A stretch of DNA of 64,000 nt, taken from positions 3,739,741 through 3,803,740 of the forward strand of contig NZ_CP110848.1 in assembly GCF_026240635.1 (NCBI RefSeq). Direction: 5' to 3'. Below, piece after piece: positions 21,422 through 62,313 of the stretch. Each line of letters begins with the position of its first letter. Positions within the stretch are counted from its first letter, which is position 1. Made by a program: the position numbers and the translations under genes. The notes beneath the pieces are model-generated. The model searched no databases, had not been told where the DNA came from, and worked only from the letters and a program-made list of their open reading frames with translations. This DNA is from Trichothermofontia sichuanensis B231 (lineage in GTDB: Bacteria > Cyanobacteriota > Cyanobacteriia > B231).

Positions 21422-23089
21422 ATGCGAACTGGACAACCCCAGGTATCACCCTCTCCCGAACCAGAACTGGCTGTGAACCAAGACCCAGCATCGGCTAACT
21501 TAGACTGTGCAGCGGTTACCCCCGCTCCGGCCAGACCTTGCTTCACTCCAGCCACTGGCCAGCTATCGCTGGTTCAGCAGTTGCAACAACAGGTTCAACG
21601 GCTGGATCTGCTCAACCGCATTAACGCCACGATCCATCGCAGTTTGGATTTAGCAACGGTTTTACAAACGATCGTCACCGAGGTGCGCCAATTCCTCCAG
21701 ACCGATCGCGCTGTTATCTACCAGTTTGAGGCAGATTGGCAGGGCCAAGTGGTGGTCGAAGCCGTGGAGGGAACTTGGCAGCCAGTCTTGGGCACCATTG
21801 GTCGGGATGATTGTTTTTCGGGAGAATATGCCCACCTGTATCTGGCGGGCCGGGTGCGGGCAATTGATAATGTTGCAACTTCGACCCTGGGAGACTGTCA
21901 TATCCGCTTCCTCCAGCGTTTGCAGGTTCAGGCAAATTTGATCGTGCCGATTTTGGTTGGGGATGGTTCGCCGGATGCGTCGCATAATCGTCTGTGGGGT
22001 CTCCTCATTGCCCACGAATGTCGCGGCCCCCGCCACTGGCTTCCCTGCGAGATGGAGTTTCTCCAGCAATTAGCCGCTCAGGCCGCGATCGCGATTCAAC
22101 AAGCTGAACTCTACACCCAGGTTCAACGTCAGGCGGAGCAAGCCCAACGTCAGGCGGAGCAATTGCAGGCAGCCCTGACGGAATTGAAATCGACGCAAGC
22201 GCAATTAATTCAAAGCGAAAAGTTGTCGAGCTTGGGACAAATGGTGGCAGGGATTGCCCATGAGATCAATAACGCCAATACCTTTGTCCATGCCAATCTC
22301 CCCTATGCCAGCCGCTATTTTGAGGTCTTTAGTCGCCTCGTTGATCGCTACGAGACAGTGGGTTTGACGTTGCCAGTGGCCGAGCGCCAAGCCCTAGTGC
22401 ATGGGATCGCCGAGATTCTCGAGCTACCAGAAGCCGAAACCGCCTCACCTCCGGAACTCGTGGATCTGGTAGCGGCGGAATTGGACTATATCCGACAGGA
22501 CTGCGCGCAGCTGATGCGATCGATGGAGGAGGGAAGTCGTCGCATCCGGGAAATAGTGCTGTCCCTGCGCAACTTTTCCCGCCTTGACGAGGCCGGCTAT
22601 AAGGTCGTTGATCTCCACCAGGGGTTAGATAGCACCCTGTTAATTCTCCAGCATCGGTTGCAACAGGGTATTCGCCTTGTCAAGGAATATCAATCCCTGC
22701 CCCAGGTGGGCTGTTACGCAGGGCAGATTAACCAGGTCTTTCTCAACCTGTTAAACAATGCAATTGATGCCGTGACCCTTCCCCATGAAGCTGCTACGCC
22801 GCCGCCAGCCGCGGTCATTACCATCCGTACTTGGCAACCGGATCCCGACTGGGTCGTGATCGCGATCGCGGATACCGGACCGGGCATTCCCCTGCCTGTT
22901 CAGGCGCGGATGTTTGATCCCTTCTTCACCACCAAAGCTGTGGGACAGGGACGCGGCCTAGGGTTGGCGATCGCCCGTCAGATCATTGTTAATGGCCACG
23001 GAGGCGAATTGCGCTGTATCAGTGAACCGGGTCAGGGCACTGAATTTCAGGTCTGGCTGCCGGTGCGTTCTGAGCACCTGACCCGCTAA
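21422..23089 (+). CDS. GAF-domain histidine kinase, candidate DXCF cyanobacteriochrome
   Basis: 555-residue cytosolic sensor kinase. Residues 60-230 form one phytochrome-type GAF domain. It has the Asp-Asp-Cys-Phe motif (129-132) and a Cys-His pair (159-160) in the segment GDCHIRFLQRLQVQANLIVP. In cyanobacteriochromes a DXCF motif plus a CH motif provide the two cysteines holding a bilin, and such domains usually sense blue/green or violet light. A short coiled coil with duplicated RQAEQ follows (231-265). HisKA has the phospho-acceptor His280 in AGIAHEIN. The HATPase part has N-box LNLLNNAIDAV, ADTGPGI, FDPFF and GQGRGLGLA. All kinase motifs are intact. There is no receiver domain, and no response regulator is adjacent. 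Bilin binding is inferred; non-photosensory GAF domains can resemble this. Confidence 0.88.
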   Translation: MRTGQPQVSPSPEPELAVNQDPASANLDCAAVTPAPARPCFTPATGQLSLVQQLQQQVQRLDLLNRINATIHRSLDLATVLQTIVTEVRQFLQTDRAVIYQFEADWQGQVVVEAVEGTWQPVLGTIGRDDCFSGEYAHLYLAGRVRAIDNVATSTLGDCHIRFLQRLQVQANLIVPILVGDGSPDASHNRLWGLLIAHECRGPRHWLPCEMEFLQQLAAQAAIAIQQAELYTQVQRQAEQAQRQAEQLQAALTELKSTQAQLIQSEKLSSLGQMVAGIAHEINNANTFVHANLPYASRYFEVFSRLVDRYETVGLTLPVAERQALVHGIAEILELPEAETASPPELVDLVAAELDYIRQDCAQLMRSMEEGSRRIREIVLSLRNFSRLDEAGYKVVDLHQGLDSTLLILQHRLQQGIRLVKEYQSLPQVGCYAGQINQVFLNLLNNAIDAVTLPHEAATPPPAAVITIRTWQPDPDWVVIAIADTGPGIPLPVQARMFDPFFTTKAVGQGRGLGLAIARQIIVNGHGGELRCISEPGQGTEFQVWLPVRSEHLTR

Positions 23090-23157: not shown

Positions 23158-23264
23158 TATCGTCATTGCCATTTAGGCTGAAACAGCACCCTCACCCCCA
23201 ACCCCTCTCCCAGAGCGGGAGAGGGGAGTGAAAAACTGTATCGTTCTTATTTAGATTGACCATA
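23158..23264 (+). repeat. Family B element, copy 1
   Basis: 107-bp inverted-repeat element starting TATCGTCATTGCC and ending GATTGACCATA, around the core CCCCTCTCCC-AGAGC-GGGAGAGGGG. It lies between the converging histidine kinase and CHASE2 kinase genes, so the hairpin may serve both as transcription stop. The rest of this 306-bp spacer shows nothing else. Confidence 0.85.
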
Positions 23265-23395: not shown

Positions 23396-25975
23396 CTAAT
23401 GGGCAGCCCTCGTTGAGGACTCGTCTGCATCCGGCTTTGCCGCCTCAGACGGCGGTGCAGGGGGGCAGAAGGGCTGGCCTGGTGGGGGCAGGGGGGACGG
23501 CTGGGGGAGGAGAATGGTACTTGGCTCGTCTGGGATGGGGGTTTCTGGAGCAGGCACTGCCTCTGCCTGATCGCCGTTGGGGATTTTCGGGGTGGGGTGT
23601 GCTAGAAAGGCGGTATGGGCTGACCAAACGATGGGTTCCGGATCGTGTCGGGTAGCTCGGTCCCCAGTCGGGAGCACAGGGCCAGTGGCTCGCTGGGCAG
23701 CCAGGGAAGCTGGCCCCCGCCGCTGGACTGTCTGGTTAACCCAGTCGTCTCCAGGCGTTGGCTGGAGTTCAGTAGGCAGCGTGGCGATCGCGGCCAGCAC
23801 CTCTGATGCGGATGCATAGCGTTGAGTGCAGTCAGGGTAGACCATCTGATCAATCAGTGCGACGAGGGCTGGCGACACCTGGGGCACCAGCTCATGCCAG
23901 AGAATCGTCCCCGTAGCTGGATCCTGTTCCAAACGACGAGGGGAAAAGCCCGTCAGGGCTTCGATCGCAATCATCCCCAGGGCGTAGAGATCACTGTTGA
24001 ACTGGGGTCGCCCCGCCGATTGTTCACTTGGCATATACCCCGGTGTACCCACGGCGATCGTAAATTTCGTGTTGGGGTCTAGGTCTGCAATCTGGGTTGA
24101 TACCTTCTTCGCGATGCCAAAGTCGATAATGACTAGCCGTTGATCGGATTGGCGACGGAGAATATTAGAGGGTTTCAGGTCCCGGTGAATCACGCCCTGG
24201 CTATGGATAAAGGCCAACACGGGCAGGAGATCCGCCAACATCTGCACCACCTGGGTGGGTGAAAACCGCCGCTCGATCAAGAGTTCACTAGCCAGGGAAC
24301 AGCCCTCAATCAACTCCTGCACGATATAAAACCCTTGGCCTTCCTCAAAAAATGCCAGTAATTGGGGAACCTGAGGATGTTGTCCCAACCGTTCGAGAGC
24401 GTCGGCTTCCGTTCGGAATAATCGGCGGGCGAGTTCTAAGACCTTGGGGCTATCGGTGACGACCTTGAGTTGCTTAACCACACATTGGGGATGGCCGGGA
24501 CGCTGGGTGTCTTCTGCGACATAGGTTTCGCCAAACCCCCCCGATCCTAACACCCGTACAATTTTGTAACGATTGCTTAAGAAGGTACCCGCGAGGGCCT
24601 GTTGTCGGGCTTGGAGGAGATCCTGGAGATCCTCCTGCTGACTGATAATTTCCTGGACGATGGGTGACGTGGCGTAATGCTTGAGGGTATCTCGTAGCTG
24701 CCGTTTCCGGCGTTGTTCTTGCGCTGCACCCACCACTAACTCAACCAAACCCCCCAAGAAAATTGTGCCTGCCGGGATTGCGATCGGCAGGATCAAATTT
24801 CCTCGTACCAAGGTGACATATCCCAGGACCAACCAGCTACTGCCTAGCCCCACCGCTAGGCCCCATCGCCCCAGGAGCGATCGCGGACGGGTCAGCACCC
24901 AAGTCGCCCCTGCGGTCACGATCAAAACGGCTAAACCCCGGAGGGGGGCCGGCGGGATGGCGTCGGCGATCGCACGGCCCTGCAAGAGGGTGGCGATCGC
25001 CGTGGCATTGATCACAATCCCTGGCATTTTTTCTGGGAATAGCCAACTATTGGCAAAGGGGGTGGCGTGAAAGTCCTGATGGGCGAGGGCGGTCGATCCC
25101 ACCAGCACAATCTTGTCCCGGAAGTAGGCCCCCGACTGGAATTGCTTTTGCCAGGTGTCGGGATCTAAGACATCCAGGAAGGCGACCTGATCAAAGGCGG
25201 AAGCTGGCCCGTAGAAGAACAGATTGCTGCCAGCCGGTGTTGGGTAGGAGAGTTGGGCCGCCTGCAGGGTCGCCTCGGCAAAGGTGGGGATGCCACGGGC
25301 TAACGCCTGAAAGGCAACGGCTTGGGCTGGTGGTAAGCGCCGTAATTGCTCGCTGACGAATTGACTACCTAACTGGTGAATCCGACCATTGGCGTCAATT
25401 GGGTAGTTAATCGTCCCAATCTTGGCCAGCGCTTCAAATTGGGGAAGGGGAGCCAACAGGCGATCGATGCTGCCCGTCTGATTTTCCTGGGGAGCATATT
25501 GGGCCGCCAGGACAACCTGATCCCCCCTCCGTGCAAGAACCGCCGCTAGCGCACGATCATCCTCGGGACCATAGAGGCTAGGGGTGGTCAACAGTAAATC
25601 AAGGGAAACCGCTCGCGCTCCCGCTTGCAAAAGGCGATCGATCACTAGGGCATAGGTCTGCCGTTGCCAGGGCCAGGTTTGGATGAGGGAGAGGTAGGGC
25701 CGATCGATCCCAGCCCGTTGATACTCACTCGCCAGTCTCAGGGCATTGTCATCGATCGTCAGGATGACGATATTAGCTGGGGTGGGGACGGGTCCCCGCA
25801 GCTCAAAAAAGAGGGCCTGGGTCTGTCGCTCCAGCATCTGCACCCAAGGCAGATCGAAACCGGTCGCTAAAGCCGCGAGCAAAACCACCCCAGCAACTCC
25901 CCAATTCTCCCAATGCTGTCCCTTGAGCAGGTGTTGAATCCGCGTGACTGCCGTTGCTAGTCGTGTTGCTCGCAT
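23396..25975 (-). CDS. CHASE2-domain serine/threonine protein kinase
   Basis: 859-residue membrane receptor kinase. A membrane helix at about 27-42 is followed by an extracytoplasmic CHASE2 sensor (about 45-330) containing FFELRGPVPTPANIVILTIDD and the closing FRDKIVLVGSTALAHQDFHATPF. Three further helices lie at about 345-420. After a linker comes a eukaryotic-like kinase (about 470-735): GSGGFGETY, Lys501 in VVKQL, HRDLKPSN with Asp599, IIDFG with Asp618. All catalytic residues are intact. The last 120 residues are Pro-rich and probably disordered. ATG 25975 and GTG 25978 are equally possible starts. It shares architecture with the kinase at 32311-34587. Ligand and targets are unknown. Confidence 0.93.
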   Translation of the reverse strand: MRATRLATAVTRIQHLLKGQHWENWGVAGVVLLAALATGFDLPWVQMLERQTQALFFELRGPVPTPANIVILTIDDNALRLASEYQRAGIDRPYLSLIQTWPWQRQTYALVIDRLLQAGARAVSLDLLLTTPSLYGPEDDRALAAVLARRGDQVVLAAQYAPQENQTGSIDRLLAPLPQFEALAKIGTINYPIDANGRIHQLGSQFVSEQLRRLPPAQAVAFQALARGIPTFAEATLQAAQLSYPTPAGSNLFFYGPASAFDQVAFLDVLDPDTWQKQFQSGAYFRDKIVLVGSTALAHQDFHATPFANSWLFPEKMPGIVINATAIATLLQGRAIADAIPPAPLRGLAVLIVTAGATWVLTRPRSLLGRWGLAVGLGSSWLVLGYVTLVRGNLILPIAIPAGTIFLGGLVELVVGAAQEQRRKRQLRDTLKHYATSPIVQEIISQQEDLQDLLQARQQALAGTFLSNRYKIVRVLGSGGFGETYVAEDTQRPGHPQCVVKQLKVVTDSPKVLELARRLFRTEADALERLGQHPQVPQLLAFFEEGQGFYIVQELIEGCSLASELLIERRFSPTQVVQMLADLLPVLAFIHSQGVIHRDLKPSNILRRQSDQRLVIIDFGIAKKVSTQIADLDPNTKFTIAVGTPGYMPSEQSAGRPQFNSDLYALGMIAIEALTGFSPRRLEQDPATGTILWHELVPQVSPALVALIDQMVYPDCTQRYASASEVLAAIATLPTELQPTPGDDWVNQTVQRRGPASLAAQRATGPVLPTGDRATRHDPEPIVWSAHTAFLAHPTPKIPNGDQAEAVPAPETPIPDEPSTILLPQPSPLPPPGQPFCPPAPPSEAAKPDADESSTRAAH

Positions 25976-26246
25976 CACGTATCCCCCAGAAGATCGGTCC
26001 TACTCAACCCCCTCTGGCTCCGTGGGCGGCAGGGAAGCCACCGCGTCGTGCCCTGAAGGCCGGGGCGCGGGGGAAGCGGGTGAGGGGTCTTGGTTCATTG
26101 CTGGCTTAACCTCACGCAAAGGTCTAAAGTCTACAGATGCACCCGCCAGTGCCATTGATTTGGGTGTCTTGGGTGGACCCTGCAGGGATTTCTAGTCTGG
26201 CACAGGCGCCTAAATCGATGCAGGCTGGCCAGTCATCTGCTGGGCA

Positions 26247-26339: not shown

Positions 26340-26443
26340 GTGCTACCCTCACCCTAAATCCCTCTCCCAGAACGGGAGAGGGACTGGCCAATCCGGCCCC
26401 CTGTCGCCCTGTTTGGGAGAAGGGGTGGGGGGATGAGGGCTGC
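26340..26443 (+). repeat. Family A element, core only
   Basis: Carries the two family A hairpins (CCCTCTCCC-AGAAC-GGGAGAGGG, and a second GTTTGGGAGAAGGGG arm) but lacks the terminal inverted repeats seen in the copy at 61917-62136. A degraded copy. Confidence 0.7.
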
Positions 26444-26601
26444 TTTGTTACCAACCGGGATGCTCCCCTGACGTATGGCTTGCTCACTAGGCCACCACCC
26501 GGTTCTATCATAGGGGACAATTTCTATAGGGGGACGTAGATACCCCCTGTTTTCCAGGAACCCCTTCTCCCTGGGCGAACTGTTTACCCCTTCTCTGAAC
26601 T

Positions 26602-28431: not shown

Positions 28432-28537
28432 TATAGTCGTTTCAATTTAGATTGAAACAGCGCCATCACCCCCAACCTCTCTCCCACAGCGGAAGAGAGG
28501 GGTGAAAAATGTATCGTTCTTATTTGGATCGACTATA
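28432..28537 (+). repeat. Family B element, copy 2
   Basis: 106 bp from TATAGTCGTTTC to GGATCGACTATA, with an imperfect core CTCTCTCCC-ACAGC-GGAAGAGAG. It has diverged more than other copies. It overlaps the 3' end of the small leftward gene at 28520-28762, so the last few codons of that frame come from the repeat. Confidence 0.8.
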
Positions 28538-31023: not shown

Positions 31024-31130
31024 TATGGTCAATCCAAATAAGAACGATACAGTTTTTCACTCCTCTCTCCCGCTCTGGGAGAGGGGCTGGGGGTGAGGGT
31101 GGTGTTTCAGCCTAAATGGCAATGATTATA
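31024..31130 (-). repeat. Family B element, copy 3
   Basis: 107 bp, inverted relative to copy 1: TATGGTCAATCC at the left and GGCAATGATTATA at the right, around the conserved core hairpin. It lies between cysS and the alcohol dehydrogenase gene, which read in the same direction. Confidence 0.85.
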
Positions 31131-32193: not shown

Positions 32194-32294
32194 ATAGTCA
32201 TTGCCATTTAGGCTGAAACAGCCCCCTCACCCCCCACCCCTCTCCCAGAGCGGCAGAGGGGCTTAGACATCTCTTTCTAATCTGAAATAATTAT
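32194..32294 (+). repeat. Family B element, copy 4 (variant end)
   Basis: Left end CATAGTCATTGCCATTTAGG as in other copies, but the right end reads GCTTAGACATCTCTTTC and on to AATAATTAT. That variant end is shared, in inverse, with copy 7 at 48527. It fills the gap between converging alcohol dehydrogenase and CHASE2 kinase genes. Confidence 0.75.
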
Positions 32295-32310: not shown

Positions 32311-34587
32311 TTACTCCAATTGCTTCAATGCCTGTAGCACTTCCGTCGCTGAGCGATAGCGATCGGTAAAGAAATAGCAAACCATTTTGTCCAGAATGGC
32401 CGCAAACTCCGGTGTGACTTTTGCTAACGGGTGCCAGGGGAGTTCACCCTCCTCATTGCGTTGGGGGAGGCGCGTGGGCGGAATGCCCGTTAATGCCTGA
32501 ATGCAGATCATGCCAAGGGCATAGAGATCACTACTGAGATTCGGCGACCCCAACAACTGCTCCGGCGGCGCATAGCCCCGTGTCCCGATCGCCACCGTAA
32601 GCGCTTCGTCTTCGTTATCCACCTGGGGATTCAGTTGTTTCACGGCGCCAAAGTCAATCAGAACGGGATGCTGGTCGCTATCCCGAATGATCACATTGCT
32701 CGGCTTAATATCGCGGTGGATCACATGGCAAGCATGAATGGGAATGAGAATCTCTAGCATCCCCTTCAGCCACTCGATGACCCAAGCTTCGGACTGCCGT
32801 TTGTCGGGGGGTAAGAGATCACACAGCGATTGACCTTTGATAAATTCTTCGACTAAATAAAAATCATTCTCGGCCTCATCTTCAAAATAGGCCAGCAGTT
32901 GGGGGATATATTTCTGCTTGCCCAGCATTTCCAGGATGCTGGCTTCCGCCTTAAATAGGCGGCGGGCAATGTCCATGTGGCGAGGGTTCTTTTGGGCCAA
33001 GAGGAGGCGTTTGACAACGCAGATAGGACGGCCCGGACGGTGGGTATCCTCCGCCAGGTAGGTTTGACCAAAGCCCCCTGAACCCAGGAGTTGGGTGATC
33101 TGGTAGCGATCGGCCAATAGGGGCCGGGTACTGTCACTCAGGGTGAGAGGAACGGGGCGATCGACGAGAGCTGTCTGTTCCTCTAAGACCGTTTGCATCA
33201 GCAACAGTTCGTCGTCACGCACCTGCACCAGTCGGGTCAGTCGTTGTTGCTCTTGGTGGAGTTGGTAGGCCACGCAGGCCATCATGCTGCTCCCAGTTGC
33301 CACCCAGGCGATCGCCGGCGTGGCCACGGGAATCCAGCCACCGAGCCAAAAGCTGCCCATGCCGACGCCCCCGATTACCCCGATCCCTAGCAGGAATAGC
33401 CCCCCCAAGCGCAGCGGATGGCGAATGCGGTAAACCAGGAGTGCGCCGCCCACGGACCACAGGGCAATCCAGACCCCCTCTAGCCACTCCGGCCAGAACC
33501 AGAACAGAGGCCGCTCACCCAACACGGCTGATAGGATTTGACTGGTTTGCTGGGCGTGAATCATGACGCCCGGAACCATAAAGTCACCCGTGTCCGCCGC
33601 GCTATAGGGGGTGGGGAGTAAATCCTTACCGCTAGGGGCCGTTGTCCCAATCAGGACGATCTTATCCTTGATCCAAGTGGGATCAACGTCCCCCGCCAAG
33701 ACCTCACCCAGGCTCACTAGGCGTGCCCCCTGTTTATAGTTGCGATAATTCAACAGGAGTTGGTAGCCACCCGCATCCACATGGCGATAGCCGCCGGAGG
33801 TGGATTGGAGGGGCTGGAAGTTGGCTTGGCCCCACTGGAAACGGAGTCGGCTATCTGGCTCTGAGGGGATGATTCCTGCCTGGAGAAGGTACGCTTTGGC
33901 TAGCTGAAAGGATAGGGAATAGACAGTTAGATCCGGCTCAATCCAACCAAAGAGAAAGTTACGCCGTACCACATTATCCTTATCCACCACCAGGTCATTA
34001 AAGCCAACCTGTCCTGGCTCAACCCCAGGCGGCGGGGCGACTTGTGTGGTTGTTAAATCCCCCAAGGTGGTAATGACAATGACATTATCGGCCTGGATCT
34101 GCTTAAGAAAGTCGGCATCCTGGGATTGATCACGCAGGATATCCAGACCAATCAGGCGGGCCTGTTGAGCCTGCAAAGTCCCCAGGAGTTGGGCCAAAAC
34201 GGGGTCAGGGATGGGCCAGCCGTGGGCCTGGATATCGGCTTCAGTAATCCCCACCACTAGGAGACGGGGATCGGGGGGCAGCGGTGAACGCAGGCGCACC
34301 ATCTGGTCGTAAACGGCCACTTCCGCCGCTTCGAGCCAGCCTAGCTGGCGGACTCCCAAGACTAACCCCAGCGTGAGTACGGTGGTGAAGACGATCGGTT
34401 GCCGGAGATTCTGGCCGAGTTGACGCAGGGTATCCCGCGATTGCGAGGTCGGGACGATCACTGTGGCCCCGCGCAACAGGAACGATCGGCATCGCTGCCA
34501 AGCTTGCAGCAGCAAACGATGCTTGTGGGTTTCCCAGAGCGGTTCATTCATTGGTGCAGACAGTGCTACGATCCCGATCAGCCTCAA
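32311..34587 (-). CDS. CHASE2-domain serine/threonine protein kinase, second copy
   Basis: 758-residue membrane receptor kinase built like the one at 23396-25975. TM1 is at about 65-85, the CHASE2 sensor at 90-350 (YDQMVRLRSPLPPDPRLLVV, then IKDKIVLIGTTAPSGKDL), a three-helix membrane block at 365-440, and a coiled linker follows. The kinase spans 495-757: GSGGFGQTYLAEDTHRPGR, Lys526, HRDIKPSN with Asp626, and LIDFG with Asp645. It lacks the Pro-rich tail of the other kinase. The start is unsettled: TTG 34587 follows GGAGACC at tight spacing, and ATG 34551 lacks a ribosome-binding site. Both give a full sensor. The kinase domains of the two proteins share long identical stretches, so they are paralogues. 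Confidence 0.92.
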   Translation of the reverse strand: MRLIGIVALSAPMNEPLWETHKHRLLLQAWQRCRSFLLRGATVIVPTSQSRDTLRQLGQNLRQPIVFTTVLTLGLVLGVRQLGWLEAAEVAVYDQMVRLRSPLPPDPRLLVVGITEADIQAHGWPIPDPVLAQLLGTLQAQQARLIGLDILRDQSQDADFLKQIQADNVIVITTLGDLTTTQVAPPPGVEPGQVGFNDLVVDKDNVVRRNFLFGWIEPDLTVYSLSFQLAKAYLLQAGIIPSEPDSRLRFQWGQANFQPLQSTSGGYRHVDAGGYQLLLNYRNYKQGARLVSLGEVLAGDVDPTWIKDKIVLIGTTAPSGKDLLPTPYSAADTGDFMVPGVMIHAQQTSQILSAVLGERPLFWFWPEWLEGVWIALWSVGGALLVYRIRHPLRLGGLFLLGIGVIGGVGMGSFWLGGWIPVATPAIAWVATGSSMMACVAYQLHQEQQRLTRLVQVRDDELLLMQTVLEEQTALVDRPVPLTLSDSTRPLLADRYQITQLLGSGGFGQTYLAEDTHRPGRPICVVKRLLLAQKNPRHMDIARRLFKAEASILEMLGKQKYIPQLLAYFEDEAENDFYLVEEFIKGQSLCDLLPPDKRQSEAWVIEWLKGMLEILIPIHACHVIHRDIKPSNVIIRDSDQHPVLIDFGAVKQLNPQVDNEDEALTVAIGTRGYAPPEQLLGSPNLSSDLYALGMICIQALTGIPPTRLPQRNEEGELPWHPLAKVTPEFAAILDKMVCYFFTDRYRSATEVLQALKQLE

Positions 34588-34756
34588 GGTCTCCTATCCT
34601 CCCACGGGTTGGGGGTATCCCAACTTGCTAGAGGTGCTAGAGTCGTAAGCCCGATGGCCAACTATTCCTAGTCTAGGCGGCACGTGAGCGTTATGCACTG
34701 ATTGCTAACCACACTCGCAAGCGGCGCTACTCAGTCGGGGGGTGTTATTCAACCAA

Positions 34757-34925
34757 AGACCCTCATCCCCTAACCCCCCGTTGCGGGGAGATGGGGCGAA
34801 GGGGAGTCGGATTGGCCAGTCCCTCTCCCAGAGCGGGAGAGGGATTTAGGGTGAGGGCCACACCCGTGGGTTGCATCCAGCCTACCCAGGTAAAACTGTA
34901 CTTTATGATTGAGGTAAGAGCTGTA
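34757..34925 (-). repeat. Family A element, partial
   Basis: Inverse copy retaining one terminal repeat (AGGTAAGAGCTG, near-complement of CAGCCTTTACCT) and the GTACTTTATGATT segment, the CCCTCTCCC-AGAGC-GGGAGAGGG hairpin and the GAGATGGGGCGAAGGGG arm. It is truncated on its left side. Confidence 0.75.
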
Positions 34926-34969
34926 TCGTTATCGTTGCTCGCAACCTCCCCGCAGACGCTCCCGACATC

Positions 34970-35831: not shown

Positions 35832-37042
35832 TGCGCACGCTTGCTGAAATCAACCAGAAAATCCGTCAGCAGCAAGCGGTGGTATGGACCGTCGAGGAAC
35901 TCAAGGCGCGGGTGGCTGACATTGGGGTGACCGCAGCGGCGAAGCAAGTGGATGTCATTACCACAGGCAGCTTTGAACCCGCTGAGTCGTCGGGCGCGAT
36001 CCTCAACCTGGGGCATACGGACCCACCGATCAAGATTCGCCAGTGTTGGTTGGATGGGGTATTGGCCTATTCGGGCTTTGGGGCGGTGGATCTCTATCTC
36101 GGTGCGGGGCAGCCGGCCCAGGACCTAGCCAGCAATGAGGCGATCGACCTCGAAGAGGGCTATACCCCCTCGCCGCGCACCCGTGGGGGTGGCCATGTGA
36201 TTGCGGATCTGATTGCGGGTAAACCGATCCCACTGCGAGCGCTCGGGCAGGTGACGGACTGTTATCCACGGGCGTCGTTTGAAACTACGATTACCCGTGA
36301 AACCATTAACCAGTTCTATCTGTTTAACCCGCGCAATCTCTACCAAAATTTTATTGTGGGCGTTAATGGGGGCGATCGCCCGTTGATGACCTATTTAGGA
36401 CCCCTGCAACCGAACCTGGGAAATGCCGTCTATTCCAATGCGGGGGAATTAGCCCCTCTGTTCAATGATCCCGAACTCCAGTTGATTGGGATTGGCACTC
36501 GGATTTTTCTGGGAGGGGGGATTGGCTATGTGGCTTGGGAGGGGACCCAGCATTTCCCCTTGCAAAAACGGCTCCCGAATGATACGCCGATCGGGCCTGC
36601 GGCTACCCTGGCGGTGATCGGTGATGCGAAGCAAATGGACCCAACCTGGGTACGGGGCTGTTATTTCAAGGGCTATGGTCCCTCGTTGATGTTGGGGATT
36701 GGTGTTCCCTTGCCGGTGGTGAATGAGGGGGTGGTGGCTCGGTGTACGGTGCGGGATTCGGAGTTGGTAGCCCCGATCGTGGATTTTGCGATTCCCCGCC
36801 GGGTGCGGCCTACCTTTGGGCTAGTCAGCTATGCCCAGTTGAAATCGGGCTGGATCACGATCGAGGGTAAACGGGTACGCACAGCCCCGCTGACCAGTAT
36901 TTATTTCTCTCGCAAAATTGCGGAAGTGCTCAAGCAATGGATTGAAGCTGGCACCTTCCTGCTCACGCAACCCGTCGCCCCACTGCCCCGCGATCGCACG
37001 TTTTTACCGCAAGATCAGTGGGGTGCTCAGAGCATTTTATAG
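35831..37042 (+). CDS. HcyBio-family (DUF39) sulfur-incorporation protein
   Basis: 403-residue protein of the homocysteine-biosynthesis family. In methanogens members convert aspartate semialdehyde plus a sulfur donor to homocysteine. The family core is clear: VITTGSF, then SSGAILNLGHTDPPIKIRQC, GGGHVIADLIAGKPI near 120, and TDCYPR near 142-147. Archaeal enzymes, as I recall, have a reactive Cys directly before the SSG triplet; here that position is Glu52. Cys72 and Cys144 remain. No partner ferredoxin/NIL-domain gene is adjacent, so the chemistry may differ. Translation starts at GTG 35831, overlapping the zinc-ribbon gene. The TAG stop (37040-37042) lies within the terminal TATAG of family B copy 5. 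Confidence 0.85.
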   Translation: MRTLAEINQKIRQQQAVVWTVEELKARVADIGVTAAAKQVDVITTGSFEPAESSGAILNLGHTDPPIKIRQCWLDGVLAYSGFGAVDLYLGAGQPAQDLASNEAIDLEEGYTPSPRTRGGGHVIADLIAGKPIPLRALGQVTDCYPRASFETTITRETINQFYLFNPRNLYQNFIVGVNGGDRPLMTYLGPLQPNLGNAVYSNAGELAPLFNDPELQLIGIGTRIFLGGGIGYVAWEGTQHFPLQKRLPNDTPIGPAATLAVIGDAKQMDPTWVRGCYFKGYGPSLMLGIGVPLPVVNEGVVARCTVRDSELVAPIVDFAIPRRVRPTFGLVSYAQLKSGWITIEGKRVRTAPLTSIYFSRKIAEVLKQWIEAGTFLLTQPVAPLPRDRTFLPQDQWGAQSIL

Positions 37043-37144
37043 TCATTGCAATTGAGGTTGAAACAGCCCCCTCACCCTCAGCCCCTCTCCTGCTCTGGGA
37101 GAGGGGAGTGAAAAACTGTATCGTTCTTATTTAGATTGACCATA
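37038..37144 (+). repeat. Family B element, copy 5, overlapping a stop codon
   Basis: 107 bp from TATAGTCATTGC to GATTGACCATA. Its first five bases include the TAG stop of the HcyBio gene. It occupies almost the whole gap between converging HcyBio and GNAT genes and carries a CCCCTCTCC-TGCTCT-GGGAGAGGGG core, whose loop is inverted relative to copy 1. Confidence 0.85.
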
Positions 37145-46474: not shown

Positions 46475-46581
46475 TATGGTCAATCTAAATAAGAACGATA
46501 CAGTTTTGTGCTCCCCTCTCCCGCTCTGGGAGGGGGGCTGGGGGTGAGGGGGCTGTTTCAGCCTAAATGGCAATGACTATA
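46475..46581 (-). repeat. Family B element, copy 6
   Basis: 107 bp, TATGGTCAATCTA to GGCAATGACTATA, same orientation as copy 3. Its core CCCCTCTCCC-GCTCT-GGGAGGGGGG has one mismatch. It lies directly upstream of the small gene at 46605. Confidence 0.85.
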
Positions 46582-48526: not shown

Positions 48527-48604
48527 TATAGTTATTCCAGATTAGAAAGAGATGTCTAAGCTCCTCTCCCCCTGCGGGAGAGGGGTTGGGGGTGAGGGGG
48601 CTGC
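48527..48604 (-). repeat. Family B element, copy 7 (partial, variant end)
   Basis: Starts TATAGTTATTCCAG, continues with the variant end shared with copy 4 (ATTAGAAAGAGATGTCTAAG), then a CCTCTCCC-CCTGC-GGGAGAGG core and GAGGGGGCTG. The far terminus is missing. Confidence 0.75.
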
Positions 48605-48755: not shown

Positions 48756-51700
48756 TTACTCCTCCTCCTCATCGAAATCATCGTCGTCTTCCTCCTCGTC
48801 CTCATCGAGGTCGTAGCCATTGTGGTCATCCACTAGTTCATCATCATCGCCAAGGATCGGGGAAAATCTCTCGCCTTTGCGACCCCCGCCACCAAAACTA
48901 AAGGGCGATCGAAATTCAGTACTGGGTTTATTAGATTTATTAGACGACGGCGGTTCGGGATTGAGCGATCGCGCCACCTCATCATCTACCAGGATGACAT
49001 CCTTGAGATCATCGGCATCTTCATCCTCATCGAGAATGGCCAGACTATCACCCAGATCAGGCTCGAAGCTGGTGGTTTCTTCGTAGGTGTTGAACCCTGT
49101 CCCCGCTGGGATCAAGCGGCCAATAATGACATTTTCCTTGAGACCGCGCAGCCAATCGGATTTACCTTCGATCGCGGCTTCGGTGAGAATCCGGGTCGTT
49201 TCCTGGAAACTGGCTGCCGAGACAAAGCTATCGGTCTTCAGGGAAGCCTTAGTAATTCCCATCAGCACCGGGGTATATTCCGCTGGGGCACCGCCCGTGA
49301 TCGACATCGCTTCGTTGATCTTTTCGATCTCTTGCAGTTCTGGATACTCCTGAGGCAAGAGGGTAGTGTCCCCACCGTCTTCCACCCGGACCTTGGAAGT
49401 CATCTGGCGCACAATCACCTCAATGTGCTTGTCGGAAATATCAATCCCCTGGGACTGGTAAACCGACTGGACTTCATCCACTAGGAACTTCTGGACCTTT
49501 TGCAAACTGATTAACGAGGCTTGGTAAAGCCCCTCCCGTTCGCGGTGGTACTGGAAGAGGATCTCCAAAATCTCGTTGGGGTTAGCAGGACCATCCGTCA
49601 GGGGGCTGGCCGCCTCAACCCGATCGCCGTCGGAAATCATCAGGTTTTGCCCCGGTCCGATCAGGTAGGGTGTAACCACACCGTCGTCTTCCTCGATCTG
49701 CACTTCGACCGATTCATCTTCCCCGTAGATCACCCGTGCGACCCCCGGACGTTTGGCTAAGATACACGCTTCCTTCGGTTTGCGAGCTTCTAACAGTTCC
49801 TCAATCCGCGGCAGCCCCTGGATGATGTCCCCAGTTTTAGTCCGTTCAAAGATCAGCAACACCAGGTTATCGCCCCGTTGGACTAAACTGCCATCTTCAA
49901 TGTGTAACACGGCACCGGGTGAAACCCGGTAGGGCCGACCGAGGCGAATCTGGATCTCGTTGGCATTGACGGCAACCACTTGCCCCGACTGCTCAGCCAG
50001 GATGTCAGCAGTCAGAGGATCGCGATCGACAACCAGATCGCCCACATTCACCAGTGGGGTCTGGCCGTTGGTGGGAATACTCACGCGATCGGTATCCCGC
50101 ACCACCAGGATGCGGCGAATCGCTTCGGCCACCTCGCGAATCCCCCCAACAACCCCGGCTTCCCGACATTGGATCGCTGTTCGGGCCACGACAGCACCGG
50201 GAGCAATCTGTTCGCCCTCTTGCACCAGAATACTGGTCTGGGTACCCGCCTGGGTGGGGTCACTCACCACATCCCGACGAATGACCAGGGATTCCAAAAT
50301 CACCAGTTGCAGACGCTTGACGTCCGGATCGGTCTCGTCATCCACCAGCTCAATATCAGCAGCTAAGTGATGATCTTCCTTGCCCAGATCGGTACCTGAG
50401 TTCTTATCAATTTCCAGGACTAACTGAGTGCGCAACAGTTCCAGCCCTTCCACTGACTTGACCCGTTCCCCATCCTTATAGGGCAAACGCTGGACAGCCC
50501 GTAGCCGAATCGACCGACCGGCTTCACTCGCCGATTCCTGGCTGGGAACTGAGGGCGTATCAGGAACACTGAACTCCTGCACGGGGCGCAGCAACAGGGC
50601 AGGTCCCTCCGGCGTTTCCACCGATTCGATATAGCGCAGGCCTGCCGAGACTAACCCTGGTAGCACCTCTTCCCCAGCCTGGACCAAGGTGCCATCCTTA
50701 GCAATCAGGTCCTCCGGATTATCCACCATGTGGAGTTCACCGGGCTTGATCACGATCTCTCGCAGGATGTCGTTCTTCTGGGTGACCTCGACGATGCCAC
50801 TGTTCTGGCAGAAAATATCCTTGACGACTTCGGTTCCGGCTTCGACATACTGACCATCTTCCACCAGGAGCAGCGAAATGTCCTTGTTAACCTCGTGGGC
50901 CTCTTCCGGAATCCACAGCAGCGTGCCGCCCTTGACCACTTCGTAACCCTGCTTGGCCTTGCCCTTCCTGGCAACTTCAACCCCAGCGTACTTGATGATG
51001 CCGCCCGTTTCGGTGTGATAGGACTTGTCATCCAGTTCAGCCACGACTTCCCCACTGTGGACTTTGGTCCCTGGCGTGGTCTTCAGGAAGAAGCGCTGGT
51101 TGGTAGTAGTTTCGATCACGTAATGTTCGCGGCCTTGGGAACCTTCCACGCGCACCCGTGCCTGATCCAGCAGCACCGAGGCGGTGATAATTTCGACTTC
51201 CCGAACAGTTTTGTTGCCGTCTTCGTGGGGAATGCGCACGATGCCGCCGTGTTCAGTGGTCAGTTTGGTTTCAGCCAGGGTATCGCCGACCTTCACCACA
51301 TCCCCTTCCTTGACCGTAGGTTCGGCTCCCGGTAGCAGGTTGTAGACATCTCCAGACAGGACCCAAATCAGGCCGCCACGCTGGGCATAGCGGGTAATGT
51401 TCCCCTGACGATCGCGCTTTTCCTCCGGTGCAATATCGGCAAATTTCACTTCCCCCGCCAGATCAGTGGGCACGTCTTTACTGGCTTTTTCCGTGGACTT
51501 GCGCGTGGCCCGTCCGGCGATCGGTACTTCTGCCAAAATCTGATTGGTCTCAACTTCCTGGCCATCTGGCTGCATCAGGATCGACCCCTGGACCACCTGG
51601 AAGGTTTGCTTGCGCCCCCCTTCCGAGACCAAGGTCAGTTCAAAGTTAGTTTCCGTCAGGAAGGCATCATCCCCATGCCGGGTGCGGAAGGGACGCAACC

Positions 51701-52817
51701 GCACGTTACTGGGATAGCGCACAACCCCTTTGAAGGGAGCTTGAATCTGGCGAGCCACTTCCCCCGTGAAAACCCCACCGGTATGGAAGGTGCGCATGGT
51801 CAACTGGGTGCCGGGTTCCCCGATCGACTGGGCAGCAATAATCCCAACCGCTTCGCCCATATCCACCATCTGGGCGTGGGCCAAACTCCAGCCATAGCAA
51901 TGCTGGCATACTGAGCGTGTGGCATCACAGGTCAGGGGCGATCGCACCAGCACCCGTTTTACCCCAGCATCCCCAATGATCTGAGCCAGATCGTCGTCAA
52001 TCACCGTATTGGGTTCGGCTAGAACTTCACCCGTTTCGGGGTGGATCACCCGGCCATCGGGATGATTCGCCGTCACCCGCCCCATCAGCCGATCCTTAAG
52101 CGCAATCTGGACGCGATCGCCGTCGCGCATATCCTCCAGCCAGATTCCCCGTTGGGTATTGCAATCCGCTTCACGAACGATCACATCCTGGGACACATCC
52201 ACCAGGCGTCGGGTCAGGTAACCAGAGTCCGCCGTCCGCAGTGCCGTATCAACTAGACCCTTACGGGCACCGTAGGAAGAGATGATGTACTCGGTGACGG
52301 TCAACCCCTCGCGGAAATTAGTTTTAATCGGCAGGTCAATAATTTCCCCCTGGGGATCGGCCATCAGGCCGCGCATCCCCACTAACTGCCGCACCTGGGA
52401 GATATTCCCCCGCGCCCCGGAAAAGGCCATCATATAGACCGAGTTCAGCGGGTCACGCCTGCGGAAATTCTCGACTACCTGGTCCTTAAGCTTTTCACTA
52501 GTTTCATTCCAGGTATCGATCGCCTTTTGGAACCGTTCAACTTCGGTGATTTCGCCGCGCTCATAGCGATCGTTGGTTTGGTTAATCACCTGCTCCGCTT
52601 CGGCAATCAACTGTGGTTTCGTATCCGGTACCTGGAGGTCGTCCACACTAATCGACACCCCCGCCCGCGTTGCATAGCGGAAACCCAAATCCTTCAGGCG
52701 ATCGGCCACCTGCGCCGTCCGAGCCGTGCCATAGTGGGTAAACGCCCAGGCAACCAGCTTACGCAACTGTCCCTTGTCAATCACCCGGTTGCGGAAAATG
52801 ATATTTGCTTGTGTCAT
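48756..52817 (-). CDS. rpoC2: RNA polymerase subunit beta' (C-terminal part, RpoC2)
   Basis: 1353-residue C-terminal half of the split beta' subunit found in cyanobacteria and plastids. The start [19 protein letters not shown] and the trigger-loop region ([20 protein letters not shown] near 135, then [20 protein letters not shown] near 168) are plain. The zinc site [13 protein letters not shown] near 298 is intact. A large cyanobacterium-specific insertion of sandwich-barrel hybrid motifs follows (about 340-970). The conserved [20 protein letters not shown] and [15 protein letters not shown] lie near 1190. The tail after 1290 is extremely acidic ([16 protein letters not shown]). ATG 52817 is preferred to the start six codons upstream. 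It is the last gene of the rpo cluster. Confidence 0.98.
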
Positions 52818-52956
52818 TGCGACCTCTTCACCCAATAGCCCGTGATGTGTATGCCAAACCGATATCTAGGGGTAGGAAACAGAGGATAGGGAACAGGAAA
52901 CTGGAAAAAGAAGATAACTTTCTCTTTCCTCTCTTCTCTGCCCTCTTTCCTCTCTG
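52818..52956 (-). promoter_or_regulatory. rpoC1-rpoC2 spacer with purine/pyrimidine hairpin
   Basis: On the transcript an AG-only arm (complement of CTTTCTCTTTCCTCTCTTCT and following, about 52915-52956) is followed by a UC-rich arm (complement of AGGAAACAGAGGATAGGG, about 52875-52910). The two can form a long imperfect hairpin. This could adjust the RpoC1:RpoC2 ratio or direct RNA cleavage, which is inferred. Confidence 0.45.
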
Positions 52957-61850: not shown

Positions 61851-61916
61851 TGTAGGGTTGGGGGCTTTAGGTTTTAGATTGGCTGGTGGTCGTTGCTGGT
61901 TAAGGCCAATGCCATG

Positions 61917-62136
61917 CAGCCTTTACCTTAATCATAAAGTACAGTGTTACAGGGGTAGGCTGGGGGCAGCCCGCTGGTGCGGCCCTCACCCTAAATCCCT
62001 CTCCCAGAGCGGGAGAGGGACTTGCAAATCCGGCTCCCCTTCGCCCCTTTTGGGAGAAGGGGTTGGGGGATGAGGGCTGCCGGTCGGATCGAGATCCAAG
62101 CCTTAACTGTGTACTGACTCAATTAGGTAAAGGCTG
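61917..62136 (+). repeat. Family A element, full length
   Basis: 220 bp bounded by 12-bp perfect terminal inverted repeats CAGCCTTTACCT and AGGTAAAGGCTG. It contains TAATCATAAAGTACAG near the left end, the CCCTCTCCC-AGAGC-GGGAGAGGG hairpin, the CCCCTTTTGGGAGAAGGGG arm, and GTGTACTGACTCAATTAGG at the right. It has the form of a MITE. No transposase is present. Confidence 0.85.
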
Positions 62137-62313
62137 TAAGCATGGCTGCGATGTTGGTCAGGGTGGAAGGGCCTTATTGGCTTGGGTATTGGGGGGGAGG
62201 TTGTCTGCCCGATCGAGCCATTGTCAGATGTACATATGTGAGATGTACATAGCCTAGGGGTTGGCCTACCGGTGATGCGGGTTCTGGTATGGAATCAAAC
62301 GGGAGGGGTAGGC

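Follow-up and report, generated by a model that had tools for sequence, protein, structure and literature searches.

The small TA-ended palindromes of family B, seven of which lie in the 64-kb stretch of DNA analysed here (the window), are supported as a non-autonomous MITE of the IS630/Tc1-mariner type, which we term MITE1. The element is 107 bp long, non-coding and present in ∼370 copies in the 4.44-Mb source chromosome (a single contig of 4,436,989 bp). We consider it very likely that MITE1 combines an IS630-type MITE with a REP-like core, that its copies are retained on the 3′ sides of genes, and that it is no canonical terminator. An IS630-type MITE is in itself of a known kind; what sets MITE1 apart is an untagged REP-like core that recurs in elements with different ends. 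The earlier guess that the hairpin is a terminator gives way to a testable account of hundreds of small transposons, mostly at the 3′ sides of genes. This matters since cyanobacteria are a Rho-less phylum with poorly understood transcript ends.

A search of the window with a profile built from six copies recovered all seven places named in the initial annotation, six of them as full elements and one (48527-48603) as a one-ended element:

23158..23264, + strand: MITE1 copy 1, full, between the convergent genes 21581-23089 (+) and 23396-25978 (-)
23188..23227, + strand: core cassette of copy 1, with CCCTCACCCCCAA tail, CCCCTCTCCC/GGGAGAGGGG stem, 5-nt loop and AG
28432..28537, + strand: MITE1 copy 2, full, in a co-directional spacer, with a + gene ending 25 bp before it
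31024..31130, - strand: MITE1 copy 3, full, in a co-directional spacer
about 32194..32294, + strand: MITE1 copy 4, in a convergent spacer, of the subfamily with right end CTGAAATAAtTATc
37038..37144, + strand: MITE1 copy 5, full, in a convergent spacer, with an inverted loop (GCTCT)
46475..46581, - strand: MITE1 copy 6, full, in a co-directional spacer
48527..48603, - strand: MITE1 copy 7, one-ended, in a co-directional spacer, with the subfamily-b right end and the core

Copies 1, 4 and 5 lie between converging genes, as had been proposed; copy 2, for which the same was suggested with a ‘perhaps’, occupies a co-directional spacer like copies 3, 6 and 7. Copy 5 covers the last bases of the + gene that ends at 37042. 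The other side of copy 7 is unrelated to MITE1 and resembles a fourth type of core flank. This copy lies ∼150 bp downstream of an rpoC2-like gene. The later RNA polymerase Rpb1 domains are encoded by an ORF of their own at 48756-52835, an arrangement that we take to fit the split rpoC of cyanobacteria. The 62 HIP1 sites (GCGATCGC) counted in the window presumably fit a cyanobacterial origin as well. In the family B search, a hairpin pattern with an 8-base spacer and up to three mismatches matched nothing because the hairpin loop is 5 nt long, and an Rfam search of the window returned no match. Genes for CHASE2 plus protein kinase proteins occur at 23396-25978 and 32311-34551, each converging on its neighbour across a MITE1 copy.

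Chromosome-wide, MITE1 is defined by the ends TATAGTCATT... and TATRGTCAAT.... With up to three mismatches, the 5′ end pattern matched 372 times and the 3′ end pattern 289 times across the whole contig, and the reversed patterns matched the same contig 0 times for either end. For an unbiased family sample (864 kb), the window was combined with 40 stretches of 20 kb taken at even spacing. This sample held 73 full copies, equivalent to ∼375 per genome, besides 41 matches to the core only and 20 partial ones. Thirty-eight copies measure exactly 107 bp, and their mean divergence from the consensus is 6.8%. Paired ends fall into two right-end types (58 of the GACCATA type, 17 of the CTGAAATAACTATA type), and the terminal inverted repeats are imperfect, with 8-12 of 14 end bases matching in plus-strand full copies. 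In the alignment of the 38 copies the loop of the core (element positions 55-59) is mostly AGAGC; several copies carry the reverse complement GCTCT, which looks as though the hairpin tip had flipped.

The target site is TA. The first two bases of the 73 full copies are T in 68 and A in 70, and the last two are T in 70 and A in 71. The flanks are unconserved except for A at -3 (39 copies), T at -1 (38), A at +1 (34) and T at +3 (29), a target consensus resembling ANT-TA-ANT. Two copies (L085:1278 and L088:11671) are inserted at the identical point of another repeat, and the joined flanks of these filled sites, closed up with one TA, occur seven times in the chromosome (reversed control, 0). By BLAST, the left flanks of the two sites are 82-98% identical to all five empty loci that were fetched. 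The right flank of the first site matched four of the five over 19-22 bases; that of the second gave no BLAST match, and its first letters agree by eye. Filled sites thus carry two TAs where empty sites carry one, so MITE1 duplicates the TA.

The DDE_3 copies first found in the chromosome have TACAGCC ends wherever these are visible, unlike MITE1. The commonest IS630 of the chromosome, with TACAGCC... ends, was rejected as the mobilizer of MITE1, its ends sharing only 9-11 of 28 bases with those of MITE1. Ends like those of the second MITE1 type occur in three of 145 genomes of the class, namely the source chromosome, G034 and G095. A DDE_3 search of eight genomes of family f16 led, in G034, G084 and G015, to elements that measure 954-961 bp and carry TATAGTYATT... 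ends; the G015 proteins score 147 bits against HTH_Tnp_IS630 and 99 bits against DDE_3. With the G015 transposase as query, the source chromosome revealed a decayed relative at 1,823,342-1,823,783, interrupted by stop codons and 56 and 53% identical in two pieces. This IS630 remnant, 908 bp in all, is bounded by TATAG-type repeats. Its right end matches the MITE1 ends E3b, E5 and E3 at 23, 21 and 21 of 28 bases; for its left end the figures are 19, 17 and 18. As background, 51 TATAG sites of the window average 11-12. A further IS630 piece of 223 bp (90.6% identity) adjoins a MITE1 copy near 880,010.

Taken together, the elements of G015, G034 and G084 and the remnant in the chromosome itself have MITE1-like ends, with 17-23 of 28 bases identical. 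Judged from these sequences, an IS630 with MITE1-like ends exists, broken in the source chromosome and apparently whole in G015. The resemblance of the ends suggests that an f16-like IS630 transposase would have spread MITE1 in trans. The search for an intact partner IS630 of MITE1 in the source chromosome found decayed remnants only, and MITE1 is therefore probably immobile there now. The initial annotation had read the TA-starting termini as those of a Tc1/mariner/IS630-type MITE and had called for a search for an IS630 with matching ends. Both points are borne out, by the TA duplication at empty sites, by the IS630 elements with like ends in f16 cyanobacteria and by the decayed relatives in the source chromosome.

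For the placement of MITE1, genes were called with our own simple gene caller. None of the 73 full copies lies inside a gene if an overlap of 40 bp or less with a gene end is tolerated. Among the 71 copies with both neighbours, 27 lie in convergent, 37 in co-directional and 7 in divergent spacers, whereas net spacer length predicts 13, 59 and 27% (p=1.2e-7 for convergent and 4.5e-4 for divergent spacers). The enrichment in convergent spacers that had been proposed from the window thus extends beyond it. The median distance of copies to gene 3′ ends is 79 bp (n=91), that to 5′ ends 183 bp (n=51), and in 27 of the 37 co-directional cases the upstream stop is the nearer neighbour end. Per gene 3′ end, convergent and co-directional spacers hold 0.118 and 0.090 copies (p=0.27), or 0.127 and 0.120 when spacers of at least 60 bp are considered (p=0.88). 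This equal rate per 3′ end indicates that the convergent bias is mainly a bias to the 3′ sides of genes.

The convergent bias of MITE1 thus largely reflects placement downstream of genes. Counter-evidence comes from density per base pair, which within 100-200 bp of 3′ ends is 2.0-2.5 times higher in convergent than in co-directional spacers (p 0.001-0.024) and remains in excess after 5′ zones are excluded; intolerance of operonic spacers, through polar effects within operons, could explain this twofold difference. Insertions in genes, promoters and operon interiors would be lost, leaving retained copies that follow stop codons, and convergent spacers would be richer in MITE1 since in each of them two genes end. 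A second palindromic repeat is also abundant in this genome (GTTTATGGTGGGGGCGC...GCGCCCCCACCATAAAC..., as at L085:12816-13011), with ∼133 segments in the sample, and has twice served as a MITE1 target.

Both strands of MITE1 fold strongly (-33.9 and -44.0 kcal/mol, z -3.6 and -4.0). Within a transcript the element would form a strong U-less hairpin, whose role would at most be a REP-like trimming or protection of RNA 3′ ends. Among those of the 73 full copies that match the hairpin pattern, at least five U in the eight bases after the stem were seen in 1 of 46 on the forward strand and in 0 of 44 on the reverse strand. Across the 38 copies of uniform length, stem covariation amounts to 3 doubly changed cells, compared with 3.0 in shuffles, and stem positions are paired in 91.3% of cases, compared with 91.1%.

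One alternative is that the hairpin is a REP-like shield or processing site for RNA 3′ ends, with transcription ending further downstream. We consider this unlikely, though well worth weighing. Its position after stop codons and its strong hairpin lacking a U-tract are as such a role would have them. A 2026 study (PMC13289151) notes that REP hairpins without U-tracts stabilize RNA ends, as those of E. coli do at RNA 3′ ends. It also reports that Rho is absent from cyanobacteria and that canonical terminators are scarce in them, with canonical intrinsic terminators in only 22% of the transcription units of Synechococcus elongatus. However, stem covariation is absent over the 38 copies, and the same study describes the U-less ends of S. 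elongatus as mostly without strong structure.

More doubtful still is the proposal of the initial annotation that the symmetric hairpin was co-opted, and the copies retained, as bidirectional terminators between converging genes, a reading that we regard as quite improbable. The strong folds on both strands, the convergent enrichment that reaches outside the window (27/71) and the twofold excess per base pair in convergent spacers speak for it, and copies in convergent spacers fold slightly better than others (-37.5 versus -35.8 kcal/mol, p=0.09). Yet the U-tract is almost absent after the stem, and compensatory changes do not exceed those in shuffles. Nor are genes with a copy poorer in canonical terminators, which follow 4 of 81 genes with MITE1 downstream and 15 of 411 without (p=0.53), and are thus scarce to the same degree in both groups. 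Convergent and co-directional spacers are likewise alike in copies per gene 3′ end. Finally, the second palindromic repeat, which is unrelated to MITE1 and as a control is itself not hairpin-free, is enriched in convergent spacers too (34/120, p=9e-6), with no difference from MITE1 (p=0.15). On these grounds MITE1 was rejected as a canonical terminator, and the preferred account remains that of a MITE retained downstream of genes.

The centre of MITE1 has a far wider distribution than its arms. When the whole element is the query, 45 of the 59 genomes searched match, the source genome included, and the matches listed in relatives cover or surround query positions 31-72, that is, the core and not the whole arms. 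The exact core 23-mer CCCTCACCCCCARCCCCTCTCCC is present in at least 117 stretches of genome_contigs. The 80 of these with a listed title include Cyanobacteria, Chloroflexi, Planctomycetes, Proteobacteria, Acidobacteria, Armatimonadetes, Nitrospirae and one member of the Flavobacteriales; among these listed carriers are many MAGs and isolates such as Herpetosiphon aurantiacus, Chloroflexus islandicus, Cupriavidus pauculus and Nostoc. The core also occurs on plasmids (12 records), from Cupriavidus, Sulfitobacter, Vitreoscilla, Prevotella, Planktothrix, Pseudanabaena and Leptolyngbya. A search of phage records returned nothing, and a pattern of the MITE1 arms gave none in genome_contigs, from which the source genome may be absent.

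Among the 136 cross-phylum core matches listed, the region upstream of CCCTCA is little conserved, the hairpin is closed in 86 and then followed by AG (A in 66/86, G in 79/86), and an inverted second unit accompanies the core in 33. Base counts over the same 136 matches indicate the absence of a GTAG or CGTC tag at either core boundary. Outside the source genome the core is often an inverted doublet, and this combination of hairpin units and inverted doublets is a REP/REPIN-like trait. Of 27 core loci in relatives, three have TA-bounded inverted ends matching at 11 or more of 14 positions; their single-locus random fractions (0.005, 0.035 and 0.030) are weak after 27 tests. Two of the three have a common end sequence, and the third is repeated elsewhere in its own genome. 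On sequence comparison, the central hairpin is a separate cassette, and MITE1 holds a single unit of a widespread REP-like hairpin. That the whole of MITE1 is instead a REPIN moved by a RAYT (tyrosine) transposase is very improbable and was rejected: the core does resemble REP units, forms inverted doublets elsewhere and shares the chromosome with two Y1_Tnp loci, but MITE1 has TA-bounded ends and duplicates TA, its core unit has no GTAG or CGTC tag, and each of the two Y1_Tnp loci is a few kb away from the nearest core found, as judged from coordinates only.

Within the source chromosome the core is housed in elements other than MITE1. Three such loci in the window, comprising core-only repeats at 26345 and 34818 and a MITE2 at 61915-62138, are additional to the seven copies first reported:

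26345..26445, + strand: core doublet in a MITE3-like element, with partial end similarity seen by eye
34730..34926, - strand: core doublet bounded on one side by a MITE2-like end (AGGTAAGAGCTGTA, near 34926); its left limit is approximate, and a second end was looked for and not found
61915..62138, + strand: full MITE2 of 224 bp with TACAGCC-type ends and a core doublet at its centre

The 41 core-only matches of the 864-kb sample include 24 with a MITE2 end on one side or both, 2 with a MITE1 end only and 15 with neither. By eye, the last 15 divide into 9 MITE3, 2 of the fourth flank type and 4 unplaced. MITE2 is ∼224 bp long and TA-ended, and its ends are like the left end of the chromosome's TACAGCC IS630, matching that end at 19 and 21 of 28 bases and the right end at 16 and 17; at least 19 of 28 to the left end is reached in just 3 of 1,049 other TACAG sites. 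MITE3 is ∼143 bp long, with GGGTGCATCTCA-type ends and an 8-bp target duplication. Among seven paired MITE3 ends the duplication is 8/8 in four, 7/8 in one and missing in two, one of these last being a pair 1,912 bp apart that is probably spurious. The fourth flank type (CTGATTGACTGACAAAACTCG...-CCCTCACC) was noted in several cyanobacteria (L095:13307, L097:6968, L055, L057 and window position 48527).

Essentially the core alone is common to MITE1 and MITE2. The interiors of MITE2 and MITE3 are similar over up to 123 bp, including the left end of MITE3, so the core does not have two independent hosts in them; either may lie nested within the other or have arisen from it. Four hybrids with one MITE1 and one MITE2 end switch at the core (L076:5414-5613, L079:13548-13765, L080:4124-4223 and L087:16551-16690), and a fifth mixed pair (L092) is two neighbouring elements. 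The simplest reading of the hybrids is recombination or template switching at the common core. More tentatively, and short of what we would call likely, the CCCTCACCCCCA-hairpin may be a selfish cross-phylum cassette that persists by riding centrally in the MITEs of other transposons, of the TA type and of the 8-bp-duplication type, and acts as a homology hub for end swaps, with MITE1 as one of its vehicles. If so, end swapping at the core would give hybrid elements and perhaps chromosome rearrangements, and the spread of REP-like sequences that lack a transposase of their own would become open to concrete study.

Several known systems invite comparison. Like IS630/Tc1-mariner MITEs, MITE1 is ∼100 bp long and non-coding, has terminal inverted repeats, a TA duplication and a high copy number, and has related IS630 elements with like ends. 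Unlike them, its central third is a cross-phylum REP-like hairpin cassette, and an intact partner was not found in its chromosome. Nezha we take to be a bacterial MITE of the IS630/Tc1-mariner type, comparable to MITE1. PMC3733652 names Nezha of cyanobacteria, describes GTAG-15 REP dimers within TATAGGA... palindromes of Anabaena variabilis, and notes that REPs generally favour convergent and unidirectional spacers and the 3′ sides of genes. As in GTAG-15, a REP-type hairpin is central to a cyanobacterial TA-ended palindrome; in contrast to GTAG-15, the MITE1 core has no GTAG tag, carries a CCCTCACCCCCA tail, is one unit and not a dimer, and recurs in elements with other ends. With REPs, BIMEs and REPINs the core shares a short GC-rich hairpin, found as singlets and inverted doublets at the 3′ sides of genes. 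It differs from them in having no GTAG/CGTC tag, in that, as judged from coordinates, a linked RAYT was not found in the source chromosome, and in being carried by MITEs of the TA type and of the 8-bp-duplication type. A prior description of the core was not found in the open-access text searched.

Some further observations were made in passing. Cores apparently lie in coding sequence at L062 and L184, the latter within an annotated gene for a DUF559-domain protein, and one frame of the core translates as LTPSPSPRAGEG. A GTTTCAGTCCCGCGATCGGGATTCTAACAATTTGAAG repeat array at L105:9413-12342 is CRISPR-like in appearance.
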